Assembly (NCBI GenBank): GCA_011525625.1
Contig: WYAX01000004.1
Location: forward strand, 1 to 64,000
Direction: 5' to 3'
Source: Nitrospira defluvii
Lineage (GTDB): Bacteria > Nitrospirota > Nitrospiria > Nitrospirales > Nitrospiraceae
Length of the DNA stretch: 64,000 nucleotides
The notes beneath the pieces are model-generated. The model had not been told where the DNA came from. It did no database searches and worked only from the letters and a program-made list of their open reading frames with translations. The translations under genes were made by a program, and so were the position numbers. Shown piece by piece: positions 2,658-64,000 of this stretch. Position 1 is the stretch's first letter, and each line of letters opens with the position of its first letter.

Positions 2658-3736
2658 GGCTGCTTCTTCTTCGACGCCTTCGGCTTCTTTGGTTTCCGCT
2701 CGACACGAACTCCGGGCCTCGGCATCTTTTGAAGATGTTTCGCGGCCTGCTCAAAATCACGATCGACACGACGTGGCTGCGCATCCACAATCGCCCGGTA
2801 CTGATCATACTCCTGCTCGGCTTTTGCCTTGGCCGACTCAGCAGAGATCGTCCCTGCATGACCCAATAGCTCGCGCCCGGACAGCCTCAAAAATTCGTCC
2901 AGCTTCGCAATCCAGTCCCGCATTGTCATCGGCCTGCGATTGAGCGCCTGCAGCTCGGCAAACTCCAAATAGGCATTCACAATCAGGTTCAGTGCACGCA
3001 GCTCATGTTCGGTCAGATAGTTTTTCGCGACCGAGACATCGTCCTTCCGGATAATCCCGCCAGGGCGCGTGGTGGTCAGACCCATGAGCGGCTTGGTCGC
3101 GTCCGCCCGCTGATGGATCACCTCCGCCGCCGTGTGCCCATGTGTGGCCCAATGCATCTTGTTCTGCACAGTGGCAAAGAATTGTTGAGAGATCTCGACG
3201 TTCGCCTGGTAGTCCACGCTCGTCGCATAGATATCGAGCACTTTCTGATAAAACCGCCGCTCCGACGAGCGGATATCCCGTATGCGCTCCAGCAGCTCAT
3301 CGAAGTAGTCCGTCTGTCCCTCGCCCGGCGGATTCTTCAGCCGCTCGTCGTCCATCGTGAAACCCTTGACGAGATACTCGTTCAACCGTGCCGTTGCCCA
3401 CTGGCGGAACTGCGTCCCCCGATGACTGCGGACTCGATAACCGACGGCGAGAATGGCGGGAAGATTGTAGTGCTCGATATCGCGGGTCACCTGCCGCGTC
3501 CCCTCAGATCGAACTATTCGGAATTTCCGAATAGTTGCCGTGGCAGCTAATTCGCCCTCGGTGTAGATGCCTTTGAGGTGTTCGTTAACAGTCGGCACGG
3601 TGATTTGAAATAGCTCCGCGATCTGCGCCTGGGGCAGCCAGATCGTGTCATCCTCAAAGCGGCACTGAATACGTGTGCGGCCATCTTCTGTTTGATAGAG
3701 AATGATCGAAGATTGGGGTGATGTCTCGTCAGGCAT
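2654..3736 (-). CDS. rhuM: RhuM-family protein
   Basis: A 360-aa member of the RhuM (virulence protein) family, common as a passenger inside type I RM operons; its biochemical role is not established. The N-terminal 60 residues (DDTIWLPQAQIAELFQITVPTV) look like a DNA-binding helix-turn-helix. The family core ATIRKFRIV...EHYNLPAILAVGYRVRSHRGTQFRQWA is intact. The C-terminus is Lys-rich (KPKKPKASKKKQP). AGGA precedes the ATG, 8 bp after hsdS. The gene contains a 25-bp perfect palindrome at 3512-3536. Its stop overlaps the ATG of the hsdR-like fragment, suggesting the original order hsdM-hsdS-rhuM-hsdR. Confidence 0.85.
   Translation of the reverse strand: MPDETSPQSSIILYQTEDGRTRIQCRFEDDTIWLPQAQIAELFQITVPTVNEHLKGIYTEGELAATATIRKFRIVRSEGTRQVTRDIEHYNLPAILAVGYRVRSHRGTQFRQWATARLNEYLVKGFTMDDERLKNPPGEGQTDYFDELLERIRDIRSSERRFYQKVLDIYATSVDYQANVEISQQFFATVQNKMHWATHGHTAAEVIHQRADATKPLMGLTTTRPGGIIRKDDVSVAKNYLTEHELRALNLIVNAYLEFAELQALNRRPMTMRDWIAKLDEFLRLSGRELLGHAGTISAESAKAKAEQEYDQYRAIVDAQPRRVDRDFEQAAKHLQKMPRPGVRVERKPKKPKASKKKQP
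3512..3536. promoter_or_regulatory. 25-bp perfect palindrome inside rhuM
   Basis: Arms AACTATTCGGAA and TTCCGAATAGTT flank one T; all 12 pairs match. On the coding strand it specifies the conserved residues TIRKFRIV. It could be an internal operator or an RNA hairpin. It might also be partly a by-product of codon choice for a conserved peptide, though nothing forces synonymous positions to be symmetric. Confidence 0.5.
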
Positions 3737-23427: not shown

Positions 23428-23518
23428 ACGTAGTCCTTAACCCGGCCCAGCCGATTTTTCGGCGCCAGTCTACCAGGATGATGCGAGGGAGAGAAGAGCC
23501 GTGGAAAGGAGGATCGTA

Positions 23519-23600
23519 TCTCGTGAAACGTGAAGCGTCTCTCGCTTGGCCCGGAAAGCATTTCCGAGCGAGAGACGTTTCACGAACGACGCTTCACGGA
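23519..23600. repeat. Long GTGAAACG-type hairpin repeat, copy 1
   Basis: Imperfect inverted repeat of about 80 bases: CGTGAAACGTGAAGCGTCTC...GCTTGG opposite CCGAGCGAGAGACGTTTCACG...CGCTTCACG. It fills most of the gap between the WYL gene and the MoaD-like gene. Related copies lie at 23934-24027 and 62164-62241. Confidence 0.65.
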
Positions 23601-23614
23601 CTTTGCTCCCCCGC

Positions 23615-23893
23615 TCAGGTGGGAATGTCGGTCGTGCCGTCGTAGGAGGCACGGGACTGATGCGCGATTTTCAGCACGTCACCGTCTTTCACCACCGAGT
23701 CGAGCGAGCCGACTTTGCGATTGACGGTCACGAGCAGTTCGCCGCGCACGATGAACGGCGCCAGCGCATCCATCAATTCCGCATTGCCTTCGATCAACAT
23801 CTTAATGGCGGTCGGCCCATCCACCTCCACATCCAATTCCGGCTCGTTCACACGCTGGAGTAGCGTTGGCCCGAGAATCAGCACTTTCACCAT
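23615..23893 (-). CDS. MoaD/ThiS-like beta-grasp protein without terminal GG
   Basis: A 92-aa protein with the ubiquitin-like layout of MoaD/ThiS: a hydrophobic first strand (MVKVLILGPTLLQRV), a helix (GPTAIKMLIEGNAELMDALAPF), and VRGELLVTVNRKVGSLDSVVKDGDVLKI, the usual loop before the last strand. Sulphur-carrier members end in Gly-Gly; this one continues ...YDGTTDIPT and has no C-terminal GG. It is therefore unlikely to form a thiocarboxylate as written and may be structural or regulatory. It follows the cytochrome gene by 6 bp, so it may belong to the oxidase operon. Confidence 0.65.
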   Translation of the reverse strand: MVKVLILGPTLLQRVNEPELDVEVDGPTAIKMLIEGNAELMDALAPFIVRGELLVTVNRKVGSLDSVVKDGDVLKIAHQSRASYDGTTDIPT

Positions 23894-23899
23894 GATCGA

Positions 23900-24268
23900 T
23901 CAATCCTCCCGTTCAGTCGGTGCGTATACATTCCGTGAAACGTAAAACGTGAAAGGTGAAACGATTTTGGATTCCGGACTTCCGACTTCGTTTAACGTTT
24001 GACCTTTCACGTTTGACGTCTCACGTTTCCCGGCCTCCCGCGCGTGGCAATGCAGGCAGTCCTGCCGCTTGGGATGTTGCGCCGGCAAGGGACGAACACC
24101 TTGAGGGGCATGACAGGTCGCACACTGACTCTCCACCGTAATGGATTGGTGCGCACTGTTGGCCGGCACTTTCGGATTACGGTCACGCGGCGACGGCAAC
24201 AATGCCACGCCCCCGACGACGAGCAGCGCCAGCACGACAAAAATCAGATCTACTTTGCGAAAAGTCAT
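23900..24268 (-). CDS. Small membrane-anchored dihaem c-type cytochrome
   Basis: A 122-aa protein starting at 24268 (MTFRKVDLIFVVLALLVVGGVALLP), where the ATG overlaps the oxidase stop by 4 bp. One N-terminal membrane helix is followed by two CxxCH haem sites, CATCH and CLHCH, within 30 residues, so the haems lie in the periplasm. Its coupling to the FAD/Fe-S oxidase suggests it accepts electrons from that enzyme. The last about 40 residues (KRETSNVKGQTLNEVG...SPFTFYVSRNVYAPTERED) are encoded by a dispersed hairpin repeat and probably replaced the original end. Confidence 0.75.
   Translation of the reverse strand: MTFRKVDLIFVVLALLVVGGVALLPSPRDRNPKVPANSAHQSITVESQCATCHAPQGVRPLPAQHPKRQDCLHCHAREAGKRETSNVKGQTLNEVGSPESKIVSPFTFYVSRNVYAPTERED
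23934..24027. repeat. GTGAAACG-type hairpin repeat, copy 2 (inside cytochrome gene)
   Basis: Arms CGTGAAACGTAAAACGTGAA... and ...CCTTTCACGTTTGACGTC are largely complementary. The element lies within the coding sequence of the dihaem cytochrome and supplies its C-terminal residues. Confidence 0.6.
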
Positions 24269-60081: not shown

Positions 60082-62064
60082 TCACGACTTCCCTCCGAAT
60101 GTGACGCGAACGCCGCCGAAAATCGACCGGATCGGCGTGCCGGCGCTGGCGATTTCTTCGTACTTCTCGTTAAACAGGTTTTCGGCCCGGAGGTAGGCCT
60201 GGAGTTGTTTCGTCACGTCGTACGTGACGGCCAACGACCACACATCGAATGCTGGAAGAGGTTGCCGATCTCCGGTGGTGTTGTAGCGCGAGCCCACATA
60301 TCGACCGATCAGCGTGATCCAGAGCGGGTCGATGGGCTGATAGCTGATCGTGGCGCTCCACTGATCGGTAGGCCAGCGCGGCAACCGACTCTGGCTATCC
60401 AGATCGCGCGTGATCGTATTCGTGTACTGAGCCTGCACCACCAGGCCTTTCAAAAACGGCCGATCGCTGGAATAGGTATAGGATAGCCCGGCTTCCCATC
60501 CCTTCGTGGATGCTTCCCCCAATTGTTGCGGGCAGAACCCGAAGGTACTGAACGACGCGCAGAAGATCGGATCGAATGTGGTGGTGATCAAATTCCGGTA
60601 CCGGTTCCAGAAAAACCCTCCCGTGAACTTGATCTGCTTGGAGAACAGATACTGATCGATCCCCACGTCCATACTTTGACTTTTTTCCGGCCCCAGATTG
60701 GGATTGCCAAAATTGGGGAAATACAGTTCGTTCATGCTGGGCGCGCGAAAGCCGGTCGAATACCCGGCGCGGAGCTTCGTGTCCGTTTCCTTCTGGTAAT
60801 ACCCCGCCGTAAGTCGATACGTGGTCGCATCGCCGAAGACGTTGTAGCTATCGTGGCGAATCCCGGCTGTTGCGAAGACCCGATCCCAGAGATTGAACTG
60901 GGCTTGCGCAAATCCGGCGTGGGAGCTGAGGATACGATTGGTGAGGCCGCTGTCGTTTTCTCCCTGCTGCTCTCGAAACTGATAGCCGGCGCTGAGCAAG
61001 AGCAGCTTCGTGATCTGAATGTTATGCTGCCACTCCAACCGGTTGGAGAGCACGCGCGTTTCGTTCGGATCTCCGAACGGGGTGCTGAAGGCACCGCTGA
61101 CCAAGCTCCGCTGCAACGTGCCGGGGAGAAACAGTGAGGCCTCCTGAGATCGGGCAAGGGTCAGCTTCTGCGTCCACCAGCTCGTCACCGGCTGCTCATA
61201 GCTCCCGCTGAACACATATTCCTGGCTCCGGATCTTCGAGCCGTATACGTCGCTCGGCGCGGTAGCCGACAGGTTGTCCAGCTGCACATCGGAGTTCATC
61301 CAGCGCATGCTGAAGTCCAGCCGCCCGTCATGCGGGAGATCGATGCCGATTCGGCCCGAGCCCTGCCAATTGCGATACGAATCCCGCTCCGTCGCCCCCC
61401 GCCGGTAGTTGACGGCGGAAAAGGAAGACATGTCCCATCGGGACAGGGAGAGACTATAATCGACGATCCCCTGTTTCCCTGAGACGGAGCCCCCCTCACG
61501 GATGGAAGCGAACGATCCATACTCCATGAAGCCGGTTGCAGAGAGCGGCCCCTGCCCCCTCTTCGTCACGATATTGATGACCCCGCCCATGGCGTCGGAG
61601 CCCCACAACATACTCTGCGCGCCGCGGAGGATCTCGACTCGTTCGATGTTGTCGGTCGTCAGATTCGCGAAATTGTAACTGCCGACGGTGCCGCTGTTGA
61701 CGATCGCGCCGTCGATCAGCACCAGGGTCTGATTGGCCCCGCCGCCTCGAATTTTGGCCGTGACCTCGGTACCGGGACCGCCGTTCGAAAACATCGCCAC
61801 ACCCTGGGCTAACCGAAGCGCGTCCACCACGCTCCTGATGTTCTGTCGTTTCATGTCCTGCGCCGTGATGACCTCGACCGCGCTGGTCACCTGGCTTACC
61901 GGCAATGGGGTTTTGGTGGCCGAGACCACGACTTCCTCGGCCTGCACGACAGGATCAGACTCCGGAGGCTCGTCGGCAACCGCCGCTGCCGTCCAAATAG
62001 GCGAGACACTTGTGACACACAGCAACACACACAAGACGGACCATGGCCCGAGACGTACCGACAT
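60082..62064 (-). CDS. btuB: TonB-dependent outer-membrane receptor, BtuB-like
   Basis: A 660-aa outer-membrane receptor for corrinoid uptake. It has a signal peptide (first about 30 residues), a TonB box-like EEVVVSATKT, a plug domain (VEVITAQDMKRQNIRSVVDALRLAQGVAMF...VLIDGAIVN) and a 22-strand barrel ending in RVTFGGKS. B12 as substrate is inferred from the riboswitch directly upstream and eleven cobamide genes downstream. The Shine-Dalgarno AAGGGAG is inside a 6-bp hairpin next to the riboswitch. Confidence 0.87.
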   Translation of the reverse strand: MSVRLGPWSVLCVLLCVTSVSPIWTAAAVADEPPESDPVVQAEEVVVSATKTPLPVSQVTSAVEVITAQDMKRQNIRSVVDALRLAQGVAMFSNGGPGTEVTAKIRGGGANQTLVLIDGAIVNSGTVGSYNFANLTTDNIERVEILRGAQSMLWGSDAMGGVINIVTKRGQGPLSATGFMEYGSFASIREGGSVSGKQGIVDYSLSLSRWDMSSFSAVNYRRGATERDSYRNWQGSGRIGIDLPHDGRLDFSMRWMNSDVQLDNLSATAPSDVYGSKIRSQEYVFSGSYEQPVTSWWTQKLTLARSQEASLFLPGTLQRSLVSGAFSTPFGDPNETRVLSNRLEWQHNIQITKLLLLSAGYQFREQQGENDSGLTNRILSSHAGFAQAQFNLWDRVFATAGIRHDSYNVFGDATTYRLTAGYYQKETDTKLRAGYSTGFRAPSMNELYFPNFGNPNLGPEKSQSMDVGIDQYLFSKQIKFTGGFFWNRYRNLITTTFDPIFCASFSTFGFCPQQLGEASTKGWEAGLSYTYSSDRPFLKGLVVQAQYTNTITRDLDSQSRLPRWPTDQWSATISYQPIDPLWITLIGRYVGSRYNTTGDRQPLPAFDVWSLAVTYDVTKQLQAYLRAENLFNEKYEEIASAGTPIRSIFGGVRVTFGGKS

Positions 62065-62072
62065 ACTGACAC

Positions 62073-62091
62073 TCCCTTTCGCTCGAAGGGA
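62073..62091 (-). promoter_or_regulatory. Shine-Dalgarno-sequestering hairpin of btuB
   Basis: On the mRNA UCCCUU pairs with AAGGGA around the loop CGAGCGA; AAGGGAG is the ribosome site of btuB. It lies 12 bases after the riboswitch closing stem. This is a typical translational expression platform: B12 binding would favour the hairpin and lower translation. Confidence 0.65.
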
Positions 62092-62103
62092 TCAGTCGTA
62101 ACA

Positions 62104-62330
62104 GCCGTCAGTTGGGTCTCCTGACTTGCGGATCGTCGTTTCCCTGCACCTTCCCAGCGAGCGTGAAGCGTGAAGCGTCGTTCGTGAAGCGTTCAGAGGG
62201 CGACCTCCTGCGCTTCACGAGATACGATTCACGAACCACACCGCTCGCCAGTGGCTTACTGCAGAGTCACTCCCCGCTTACAGTGGCGGCACCGTGATGG
62301 AGTTGCACCATCTTCCCCGACGCTGACGGC
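62104..62330 (-). ncRNA. Cobalamin riboswitch with hairpin insertion
   Basis: The closing stem P1 is perfect: GCCGUCAG (62330-62323) with CUGACGGC (62111-62104). In order between them are GGUGCAACUCC, GCCGCCACUGUAAGCGGGGAGUG, AGUAAGCCACUGG, UGGGAAGG and CCGCAAGUCAGGAGACC, which are the conserved core strings of cobalamin (AdoCbl-class) riboswitches. The peripheral stem GCGAGCG (62248-62242) with CGCUCGC (62163-62157) is extended by a 78-base insert related to the GTGAAACG repeats. It controls btuB and probably the following eleven genes. Confidence 0.88.
62164..62241. repeat. GTGAAACG-type hairpin repeat, copy 3 (inside riboswitch)
   Basis: CGTGAAGCG and CGCTTCACG form a perfect 9-bp stem around a 20-odd base centre, and outer CGTGAAt...CGCTTCACG segments pair imperfectly. 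The element sits exactly in the loop of the riboswitch stem GCGAGCG/CGCTCGC, leaving the core motifs untouched. Confidence 0.65.
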
Positions 62331-62417
62331 GTCTTCCTGACACTCCGCTCTCCAATAATGACGCGCCCCTGCTTCTCACACGGGTGGGCCGGCGCGAACC
62401 CCTCCCGCAACATCCGA

Positions 62418-63314
62418 TCACCCCCTGAACGGCATCCCTTGCCTCGGCAATGTAATCCGAGGCAAGCCAGACTGCGGATGCGCATCGATCAACACCTCGC
62501 AGCCGTACACTTCTTGTAACACCTCCACCGACATGACCTCGGCGGGAGCACCGATCGTACGTACCTGCCCCGCCCTTACCATGGCCACTCGATCGCAATA
62601 CTGGCTGGCGAGATTGAGGTCGTGCGACACGATCACCACCGTCAACCCGCGCTCGTCGCAGAGTCGGCGCAGGGTCGAACAAATGGCCAACTGGTGCTGC
62701 AGATCCAGAAATGCCGTCGGTTCATCGAGCAGCAGCACTCGAGGCGCTTGCGCCAAGGCCCGCGCAATCATGGTGCGCTGACGTTCTCCTCCGGACAGAT
62801 CGGTGACGGCGCGCCCGGCGAGATGCACGATGTCCATCGTGGCCATGGCCTGCGAGGCCGCCTGGCAATCCTCTCGATCCTCCCAGCCGAAGCCCAGACT
62901 CCATCCCGCTTGTCGACGGTGGGGGAATCGCCCCATCAAGACCGTCTCTGCGACCGTGAACGGAAACATCTGGGGGCTGTCCTGCGGCACCACCGCGACG
63001 GACTGCGCCACCAGCTCGTGAGAGAGGCTGCGCAACGGTCGTCCGAACAGGGCGATCTCCCCTTCCTGCGGCACAACCAATTTCGCCAACAGTTTCAGCA
63101 ACGAGGTTTTGCCGGACCCATTCGGCCCGACGATGCCCAGGATCTCGCCTTGCGCAACCTCCAGCGTCACATCTCGAAGCACCCAGGGCTCTCCCTGCGA
63201 TCGCGAGGCTCCGTAACGAAAATGCACCTCGCGAACCGCATAGGCATGGTGCACCACCGGACCTGACTCTCGATCTCCAGCCAGAGTCTGAGCGGCGTGG
63301 TCGATCCACGTCAT
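62418..63314 (-). CDS. btuD: ABC transporter ATP-binding protein (BtuD/FecE type)
   Basis: A 298-aa ATPase for a corrinoid or siderophore importer. Walker A is GPNGSGKTS, Q-loop PQD, signature LSGGERQRTMIARAL, Walker B VLLLDEPTAFLD and switch VSHD. The start at 63314 overlaps the permease stop by 4 bp. B12 as substrate is inferred from the neighbouring riboswitch and cobamide genes; sequence alone cannot exclude iron-siderophore transport. Confidence 0.85.
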   Translation of the reverse strand: MTWIDHAAQTLAGDRESGPVVHHAYAVREVHFRYGASRSQGEPWVLRDVTLEVAQGEILGIVGPNGSGKTSLLKLLAKLVVPQEGEIALFGRPLRSLSHELVAQSVAVVPQDSPQMFPFTVAETVLMGRFPHRRQAGWSLGFGWEDREDCQAASQAMATMDIVHLAGRAVTDLSGGERQRTMIARALAQAPRVLLLDEPTAFLDLQHQLAICSTLRRLCDERGLTVVIVSHDLNLASQYCDRVAMVRAGQVRTIGAPAEVMSVEVLQEVYGCEVLIDAHPQSGLPRITLPRQGMPFRG

Positions 63315-64000
63315 GCTAATCGATCCTTTCGCCATACCAGCAGATAGACGAAGAACGGGCCACCGGCTAACGCCGTGATCACCCCGACCGGCACTTCCGA
63401 CGGCACAAACAGCGTACGCGCCACCGTGTCCGCCGCCATCAAGAACATGCCGCCGACTAAGGCCGAGGCCGGCAACAACAATCGGTGGTCGGCTCCGAGC
63501 ACGAGACGGACGGCGTGGGGCACGATCATGCCGATGAAGCCGATCATGCCGCTGAACGACACCACGGCCCCGGTCATCAGGGCCGACACCAGAAAGATGA
63601 ACCGTTTGACACGTTCCGTGTCGATACCCAGCGAGCGCGCCGGCTCTTCGCCCAAGGCCAGAATATTGAGCACCCGGACCTGCTTGAAGAGCAGCAGCAG
63701 CCCGACCAGCAGATAGCCGGACAAGGCCGCCAGCACCGGGTAGGCCGGGGCGGTGAGCGACCCCATCAACCACGCCATCATGCCGAACGACCGATTCGGC
63801 TCCATAATGGAGGTGATGAACATGATGAGCGCAGAGAAAATCGCATTGAGGATGACCCCGGCCAGGAGCACCGAGTGAATCGGCAGACGCTCACGGGTCG
63901 CCGCCATCCGATAGATCACCGCGAGGGCCACCAGGCCGCCCATAAATCCGCACACCGGCAGGATCGACAGCGCCAGCACCGTCGTTCCGATGCCGAACAA
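63311..64000 (-). CDS. btuC: ABC transporter permease (BtuC/FecD type), 3' part
   Basis: The last about 230 residues of a FecCD-family permease; the start lies beyond the right edge. Typical segments are ILPVCGFMGGLVALAVIYRMA, LPIHSVLLAGVILNAIFSALI, the EEPARSLGI coupling loop contacted by the ATPase, and GFIGMIVPHAVRLVLGADHRLLLPASALVGG. It pairs with the ATPase gene by a 4-bp overlap. A periplasmic binding protein, if present, would lie outside the window. Confidence 0.87.
   Translation of the reverse strand: MFGIGTTVLALSILPVCGFMGGLVALAVIYRMAATRERLPIHSVLLAGVILNAIFSALIMFITSIMEPNRSFGMMAWLMGSLTAPAYPVLAALSGYLLVGLLLLFKQVRVLNILALGEEPARSLGIDTERVKRFIFLVSALMTGAVVSFSGMIGFIGMIVPHAVRLVLGADHRLLLPASALVGGMFLMAADTVARTLFVPSEVPVGVITALAGGPFFVYLLVWRKDRLA

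Follow-up and report, generated by a model that had tools for sequence, protein, structure and literature searches.

P11 hairpins of two Nitrospira cobalamin riboswitches as probable exchangeable cassettes of heptad palindromes

A cobalamin riboswitch in the leader of a btuB-like gene

The window analysed here, a stretch of 64,000 nt from a Nitrospira defluvii contig, contained a single Rfam match, a cobalamin riboswitch aptamer (RF00174) at 62093-62342 on the minus strand (62342 to 62093), which we denote R2. The match scored 81.2 bits (E 2e-18; gathering cut-off 31.5 bits) and spanned the full model (1-189), and the P1 pairing (GCCGUCAG/CUGACGGC) was present, bearing out the original prediction of a cobalamin riboswitch with intact core motifs and P1. 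The whole R2 leader also folded more strongly than shuffled sequence (z -3.1). R2 sits in the leader of a B12 gene set. Its end is followed after 29 nt by the start of a 660-aa ORF for a btuB-like TonB-dependent receptor (60082-62064, minus strand; PF00593, PF07715), with genes for CobB and CobA/BtuR downstream. Upstream are genes for a btuD-like ABC transporter ATPase (62418-63200; PF00005) and a btuC-like FecCD-type permease (63311-64000, extending past the window edge; PF01032), both on the minus strand. Judged by its covariance model score and gene setting, R2 is a cobalamin riboswitch whose core is intact.

The likely ribosome-binding site of btuB lies within a hairpin (CCCTTCGAGCGAAAGGG; 62074-62090, minus strand) that was kept in 27 of 27 congeneric leaders, and the spacing from the B12 box to btuB was constant, indicating that the tips described below vary while the expression platform is untouched. 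A search by eye for a complement of L5, as in an L5-L13 kissing loop, gave no clear candidate. At its 5' end, within the segment GACGCCGTCAGCGTC (window ~62319-62333, minus strand), R2 has a near-invariant GACGCCGUCAGCGUC that could form a hairpin in competition with P1 and may be part of the switch.

Following the numbering of the E. coli btuB switch (PMC5359240), the unusual feature of R2 lies in P11/L11, between J10/11 and J11/10. Exactly 78 bases (62164-62241) separate GCGAGCG (62157-62163) from CGCTCGC (62242-62248), so that both the predicted length of the extension and its predicted place in a permissive peripheral stem, namely P11, were correct. The unit that varies between species, however, is not just these 78 bases but the entire P11 hairpin (62156-62249, 94 nt, minus strand), which is predicted to fold as a single hairpin (MFE -54.9, z -5.7). 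Its borders, placed with the RF00174 alignment and relatives, are the conserved P10/J10-11 motif GCCACT on the 5' side (62250-62255) and the conserved J11-10/P10 motif GGGAAGG on the 3' side (62149-62155), again on the minus strand. The 78-base extension is a palindrome of 7-nt units (CGTGAAN, hereafter type A). It is imperfect, with arms at 62169-62191 and 62211-62233 that are 83% complementary.

The window's genome yielded seven cobalamin riboswitch matches. The second one with such a cassette, R1, lies at contig position 65572-65815, ~3.5 kb upstream of R2 on the same strand, and holds a palindrome unlike that of R2 in the same P11 stem; the remaining riboswitches have no long insert there. 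The cores of R1 and R2 are only ~63-64% identical (.63 within genome G017), suggesting that the two are old paralogues. Two further pairs of cobalamin riboswitches, ~15 kb apart, were seen in genome G000 on contigs C29 (L001, L004) and C4 (L002, L006); identity between the paired loci is 82-84% across 1.1-1.7 kb, pointing to duplication of a B12-related region.

Alternative P11 tips among Nitrospira genomes

The R1-R2 pair, ~3.4 kb apart, is conserved in 29 congeneric genomes, many of them MAGs, and the riboswitch lengths are bimodal; a btuB-based scan of named Nitrospira genomes widened the sample to ~60 loci. Across 25-27 congeneric Nitrospira genomes, P11 takes one of two forms, a short hairpin or a heptad hairpin of 71-95 nt belonging to one of several unrelated kinds, always positioned between GCCACT and GGGAAGG. 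Relatives therefore do not share one and the same insert, as they would if it were an ancestral part of the aptamer, but have short stems or unrelated cassettes. The long tips fall into mutually unrelated families (CGTGAAN, TCAGCNN, GTGATNN, CGTTANN, and CGTCANN). Within the arms of the cassettes, self match was.45,.46, and.38 at lags 7, 14, and 21, compared with.254, and peaked at these lags only; the z values of this periodicity overstate its significance since the cassette sequences are related. A few additional bases upstream were counted with some R2 tips here, but not in the family clustering or the tree counts. Cassette lengths also change by whole heptads, with exact gaps of 7 and 14 nt, which could have arisen through replication slippage.

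In R2, the short tip (GTGTGC..GCACAT) is retained across lineages I and II, and short tips also occur in the R1 outgroups L114, L115, and L131, suggesting that the short form of P11 is probably ancestral. In four genomes (G004, G007, G016, G026) both switches are short-tipped. The R1 tips of L154, L163, L159, and L160 are long P11 hairpins in which a heptad build is not obvious, implying that the site accepts other palindromes too. The R2 leader of L168 shows an additional GCGGGAAGCGGGG-like duplication upstream of P10, near position 3095.

It should be noted that repeats collapse in short-read assemblies and that many of our sources are MAGs, so we considered an assembly artefact or a mis-called RNA. 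The same kind of cassettes is present in single-contig genomes, N. defluvii FP929003 (G001/L107) among them, and five such genomes (G001, G004, G015, G020, G021) show five different R1/R2 combinations. The riboswitch scores are also far above the Rfam cut-off, and an artefact is extremely improbable.

Nearly all of the long tips (62 of 64) fold as a single unbranched hairpin, with a median z of -4, and helix pairs in the tips are 95-96% standard. Type B tips, another of the long forms, consist of 5-bp blocks with 2x2 loops between them, which means that a heptad corresponds to five paired and two unpaired bases. Compensatory changes were no more frequent than chance in the B tips, while paired cells and double changes in the R2 A tips were modestly above shuffles (2 of 500), so selection on an RNA helix is not proven by these data.

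These features bear on whether the cassette has a selected function of its own, with adaptive turnover; it might, for instance, bind a protein, be a site for an RNase, or aid folding so as to tune the B12 response. The low folding energy and single-rod shape of nearly all tips would agree with this, as would the excess over shuffles in the R2 A tips. In one scaffold, corrinoid selectivity is reported to change in some cases when the P6 accessory region is swapped (PMC9600662). Furthermore, the same genomes keep a constant length of RNase P RNA, at 424-427 nt, and of tmRNA, at 351-354 nt for full-length matches, both free of inserts, which led us to reject a general tolerance of all structured RNAs for inserts. 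However, the tip families have no sequence in common, the B tips lack covariation, and four genomes manage with short tips in both switches. We thus regard a selected function of the cassette as rather improbable. The tip would instead be neutral for ligand sensing, and we presume that it alters neither the sensing itself nor the RBS-sequestering control of btuB.

Turnover of the tips and the source of the cassettes

We mapped the tips onto a tree of btuCD coding DNA (the DNA between the two switches) for 25 genomes, which gave at least 11 class changes in R1 and 12 in R2, or 15 in R2 with finer families. On a tree of rnpB flanks, the class-change counts matched those of the btuCD tree, and finer families gave 11 changes in R1 and 16 in R2. 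Shuffled labels gave means of 11.2 (R1) and 10.9-14.0 (R2) on the btuCD tree and 11.0 (R1) and 15.0 (R2) on the rnpB-flank tree. State changes were no fewer than with shuffled labels, which means that the tips carry no detectable phylogenetic signal.

Between sister species the tips are swapped, yet core identity stays at ~87-100%. The sister pair G020/G021 has R2 cores.99/1.00 identical and tips of type A versus type B; in G022/G026, R2 cores are.99/.95 identical and the tips are type A versus short; in G000/G003, whose btuCD is 95% identical, R1 cores are.96/.98 identical and the tips are again A versus B. Conversely, tips may be closer than the flanking genes: those of R2 in G000 and G020 reach.95 identity, against.72 for btuCD. 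Sharing also extends across the paralogues, the tips of R1 in G017 and R2 in G019 being.87-.89 alike, and the B cassette is found in both switches within lineage I as well as in R2 of lineage II (L134, L145).

Such a distribution could in principle reflect an old polymorphism, with tip alleles older than the genus that have since been changed only by sorting and in-place heptad slippage, as the short R2 tips conserved between lineages I and II and the whole-heptad indels would allow. However, CGTGAAN cannot become TCAGCNN by slippage, a tip identity of up to 95% beside coding DNA of 72% identity requires transfer or strong constraint, and one cassette is common to R1 and R2. Pure in-place slippage was rejected since the tip families are unrelated, and we consider the old polymorphism very unlikely.

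The linkage between tip family and core is weak. Alleles of the same family were slightly more alike in the adjacent 5' core (p.001-.002), not significantly so in the 3' core, and the residual was under.02 and confined to the 5' side, implying that exchanged tracts must be very short. The excess of 5'-core sharing fits a short-tract transfer via the conserved core.

The insert of R2 had been predicted to be related to repeats elsewhere in the window, and this was confirmed: GTGAAGCGTGAAGCGT with up to 3 mismatches occurs four times, compared with 0.8 expected, and none of 100 shuffles reached four. A CGTGAAN palindrome related to the cassette lies at 23515-23600, and a second related heptad palindrome (arms of 30 nt, lag-7 self match 0.57) at 23934-24025; the two flank a short ORF (23615-23893, minus strand) without a Pfam match. 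Our repeat census took in the window together with 400 kb from a single contig (464 kb), as well as genome-wide heptad patterns; a strict lag-7 scan proved too insensitive. About nine heptad palindromes were recognised in these 464 kb of the window's genome. Dispersed CGTGAAN arrays were found in 28 of 29 genomes and TCAGCNN arrays in 27 of 29, with none for the reversed-pattern controls. Genome G004 has neither insert and neither repeat pattern; G016, however, has repeats without inserts, which indicates that the link between repeats and inserts is loose.

The presence of related palindromes in nearly all genomes raises the question of whether each tip change is a fresh, transposition-like insertion of a mobile heptad palindrome targeting hairpin loops, followed by loss. 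That the genome without both repeat patterns lacks both inserts would agree with this, as would the arrival of several unrelated families in the same stem and the GTCT...GGAT stub retained, as expected of loop insertion, by some lineage II R1 alleles. However, our searches outside riboswitches yielded no full-length copy that was nearly identical. For the window's cassette, matches in its own genome outside R2 were strong but partial (16-30 nt) or weak (one of 69 nt, 71%), none of them near-identical, and the B cassette likewise has only partial matches elsewhere, the full-length copies found being confined to riboswitches. MITE hallmarks were absent as well, with no near-identical dispersed copies and no target duplication at the junctions of the sister pairs. 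A Y1/RAYT transposase (PF01797) is missing from the repeat-carrying genomes G012, G015, G017, and G027, and since Y1 genes do not track with the repeats, we rejected RAYT as the mobiliser. A clean loop insertion into R2 was also rejected: filled R2 alleles have lost the GTGTGC/GCACAT stub of the empty allele, which indicates that the hairpin was replaced and not simply inserted into. In addition, the same cassette occurs in the same riboswitch with up to 95% identity across species only 72% identical in btuCD. Transposition-like insertion is therefore unlikely. Of the originally predicted insertion of a mobile hairpin, the relation to dispersed repeats stands, whereas a simple mobile insertion is not supported: whole P11 hairpins are replaced, and neither near-identical copies outside riboswitches nor a transposase tracking with the repeats were found.

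The reading that we find probable is that the P11 hairpin of the two Nitrospira btu riboswitches is an exchangeable cassette, seeded from repeats and spread by allele exchange. New families would have entered P11 as heptad palindromes out of the dispersed repeat pool, through donor events that we did not see. Later, recombination or copying would have carried them from one riboswitch allele to another, across species and between R1 and R2, via the near-invariant core. Any rod-forming tip might be tolerated because the distal part of P11 would point away from the ligand site. It should be noted that the exchange tracts are tighter than ordinary recombination suggests, since plain homologous recombination would usually bring more flank. 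We raise, as a doubtful possibility, that P11 is a true recombination hotspot, with breakpoints held within a few nucleotides by a structure-guided process, e.g., template switching between hairpins.

Implications and comparison with known systems

The modularity of riboswitches is usually tested with engineered chimeras, whereas Nitrospira offers natural alleles in dozens of species. These form a natural series in which one peripheral helix is either short or an unrelated rod of 71-95 nt on a near-constant aptamer and expression platform, and matched natural pairs allow direct measurement of ligand response, folding rate, and corrinoid selectivity. They also raise the question of by what mechanism hairpins are exchanged with breakpoints so near the hairpin base. 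If P11 were indeed a hotspot, it would have given rise to a naturally formed combinatorial library of peripheral domains in riboswitches. Our results further place heptad-repeat stems, known from introns and RNase P RNA of cyanobacteria, in a metabolite sensor of another phylum.

Dispersed non-coding palindromes are also typical of REP/RAYT elements and MITEs; in Nitrospira, however, we found no RAYT correlation, no near-identical copies, and no target duplications. Vioque is said to have described in 1997 STRR heptanucleotide repeats inside cyanobacterial RNase P RNA. These are likewise heptamers in a structural RNA gene, but in another RNA and phylum, the RNase P RNA of Nitrospira being insert-free. 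Beggiatoaceae have heptamer repeats scattered through intergenic DNA, e.g., TAACTGA (PMC4679880), which resemble the Nitrospira units in size and dispersal but are direct repeats, while those of Nitrospira are inverted arrays forming hairpins. Among cobalamin riboswitches, the P6 accessory region (P7-P12 in this RF00174 class) was already known to be variable (PMC9600662); P11 of Nitrospira differs in that unrelated heptad palindromes swap across species and two paralogues.

The closest precedent is P6b of the Nostoc trnL group I intron, a heptad-built stem of two classes (TDNGATT and NNTGAGT) with indels of 7 or 14 nt (PMC4476775). Both are peripheral stems with 7-nt units on both arms, repeated class shifts out of step with phylogeny, and whole-heptad length changes. 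However, P6b belongs to a cyanobacterial group I intron with two classes, whereas P11 belongs to a riboswitch in Nitrospirota that occurs at two paralogous loci, has at least five heptad families, and also exists in a short, empty form. The open-access literature surveyed here contained no report of Nitrospira heptad palindromes or riboswitch cassettes. As far as this literature shows, the novelty lies in the setting of a riboswitch, in how many families there are, and in their exchange between two paralogues.
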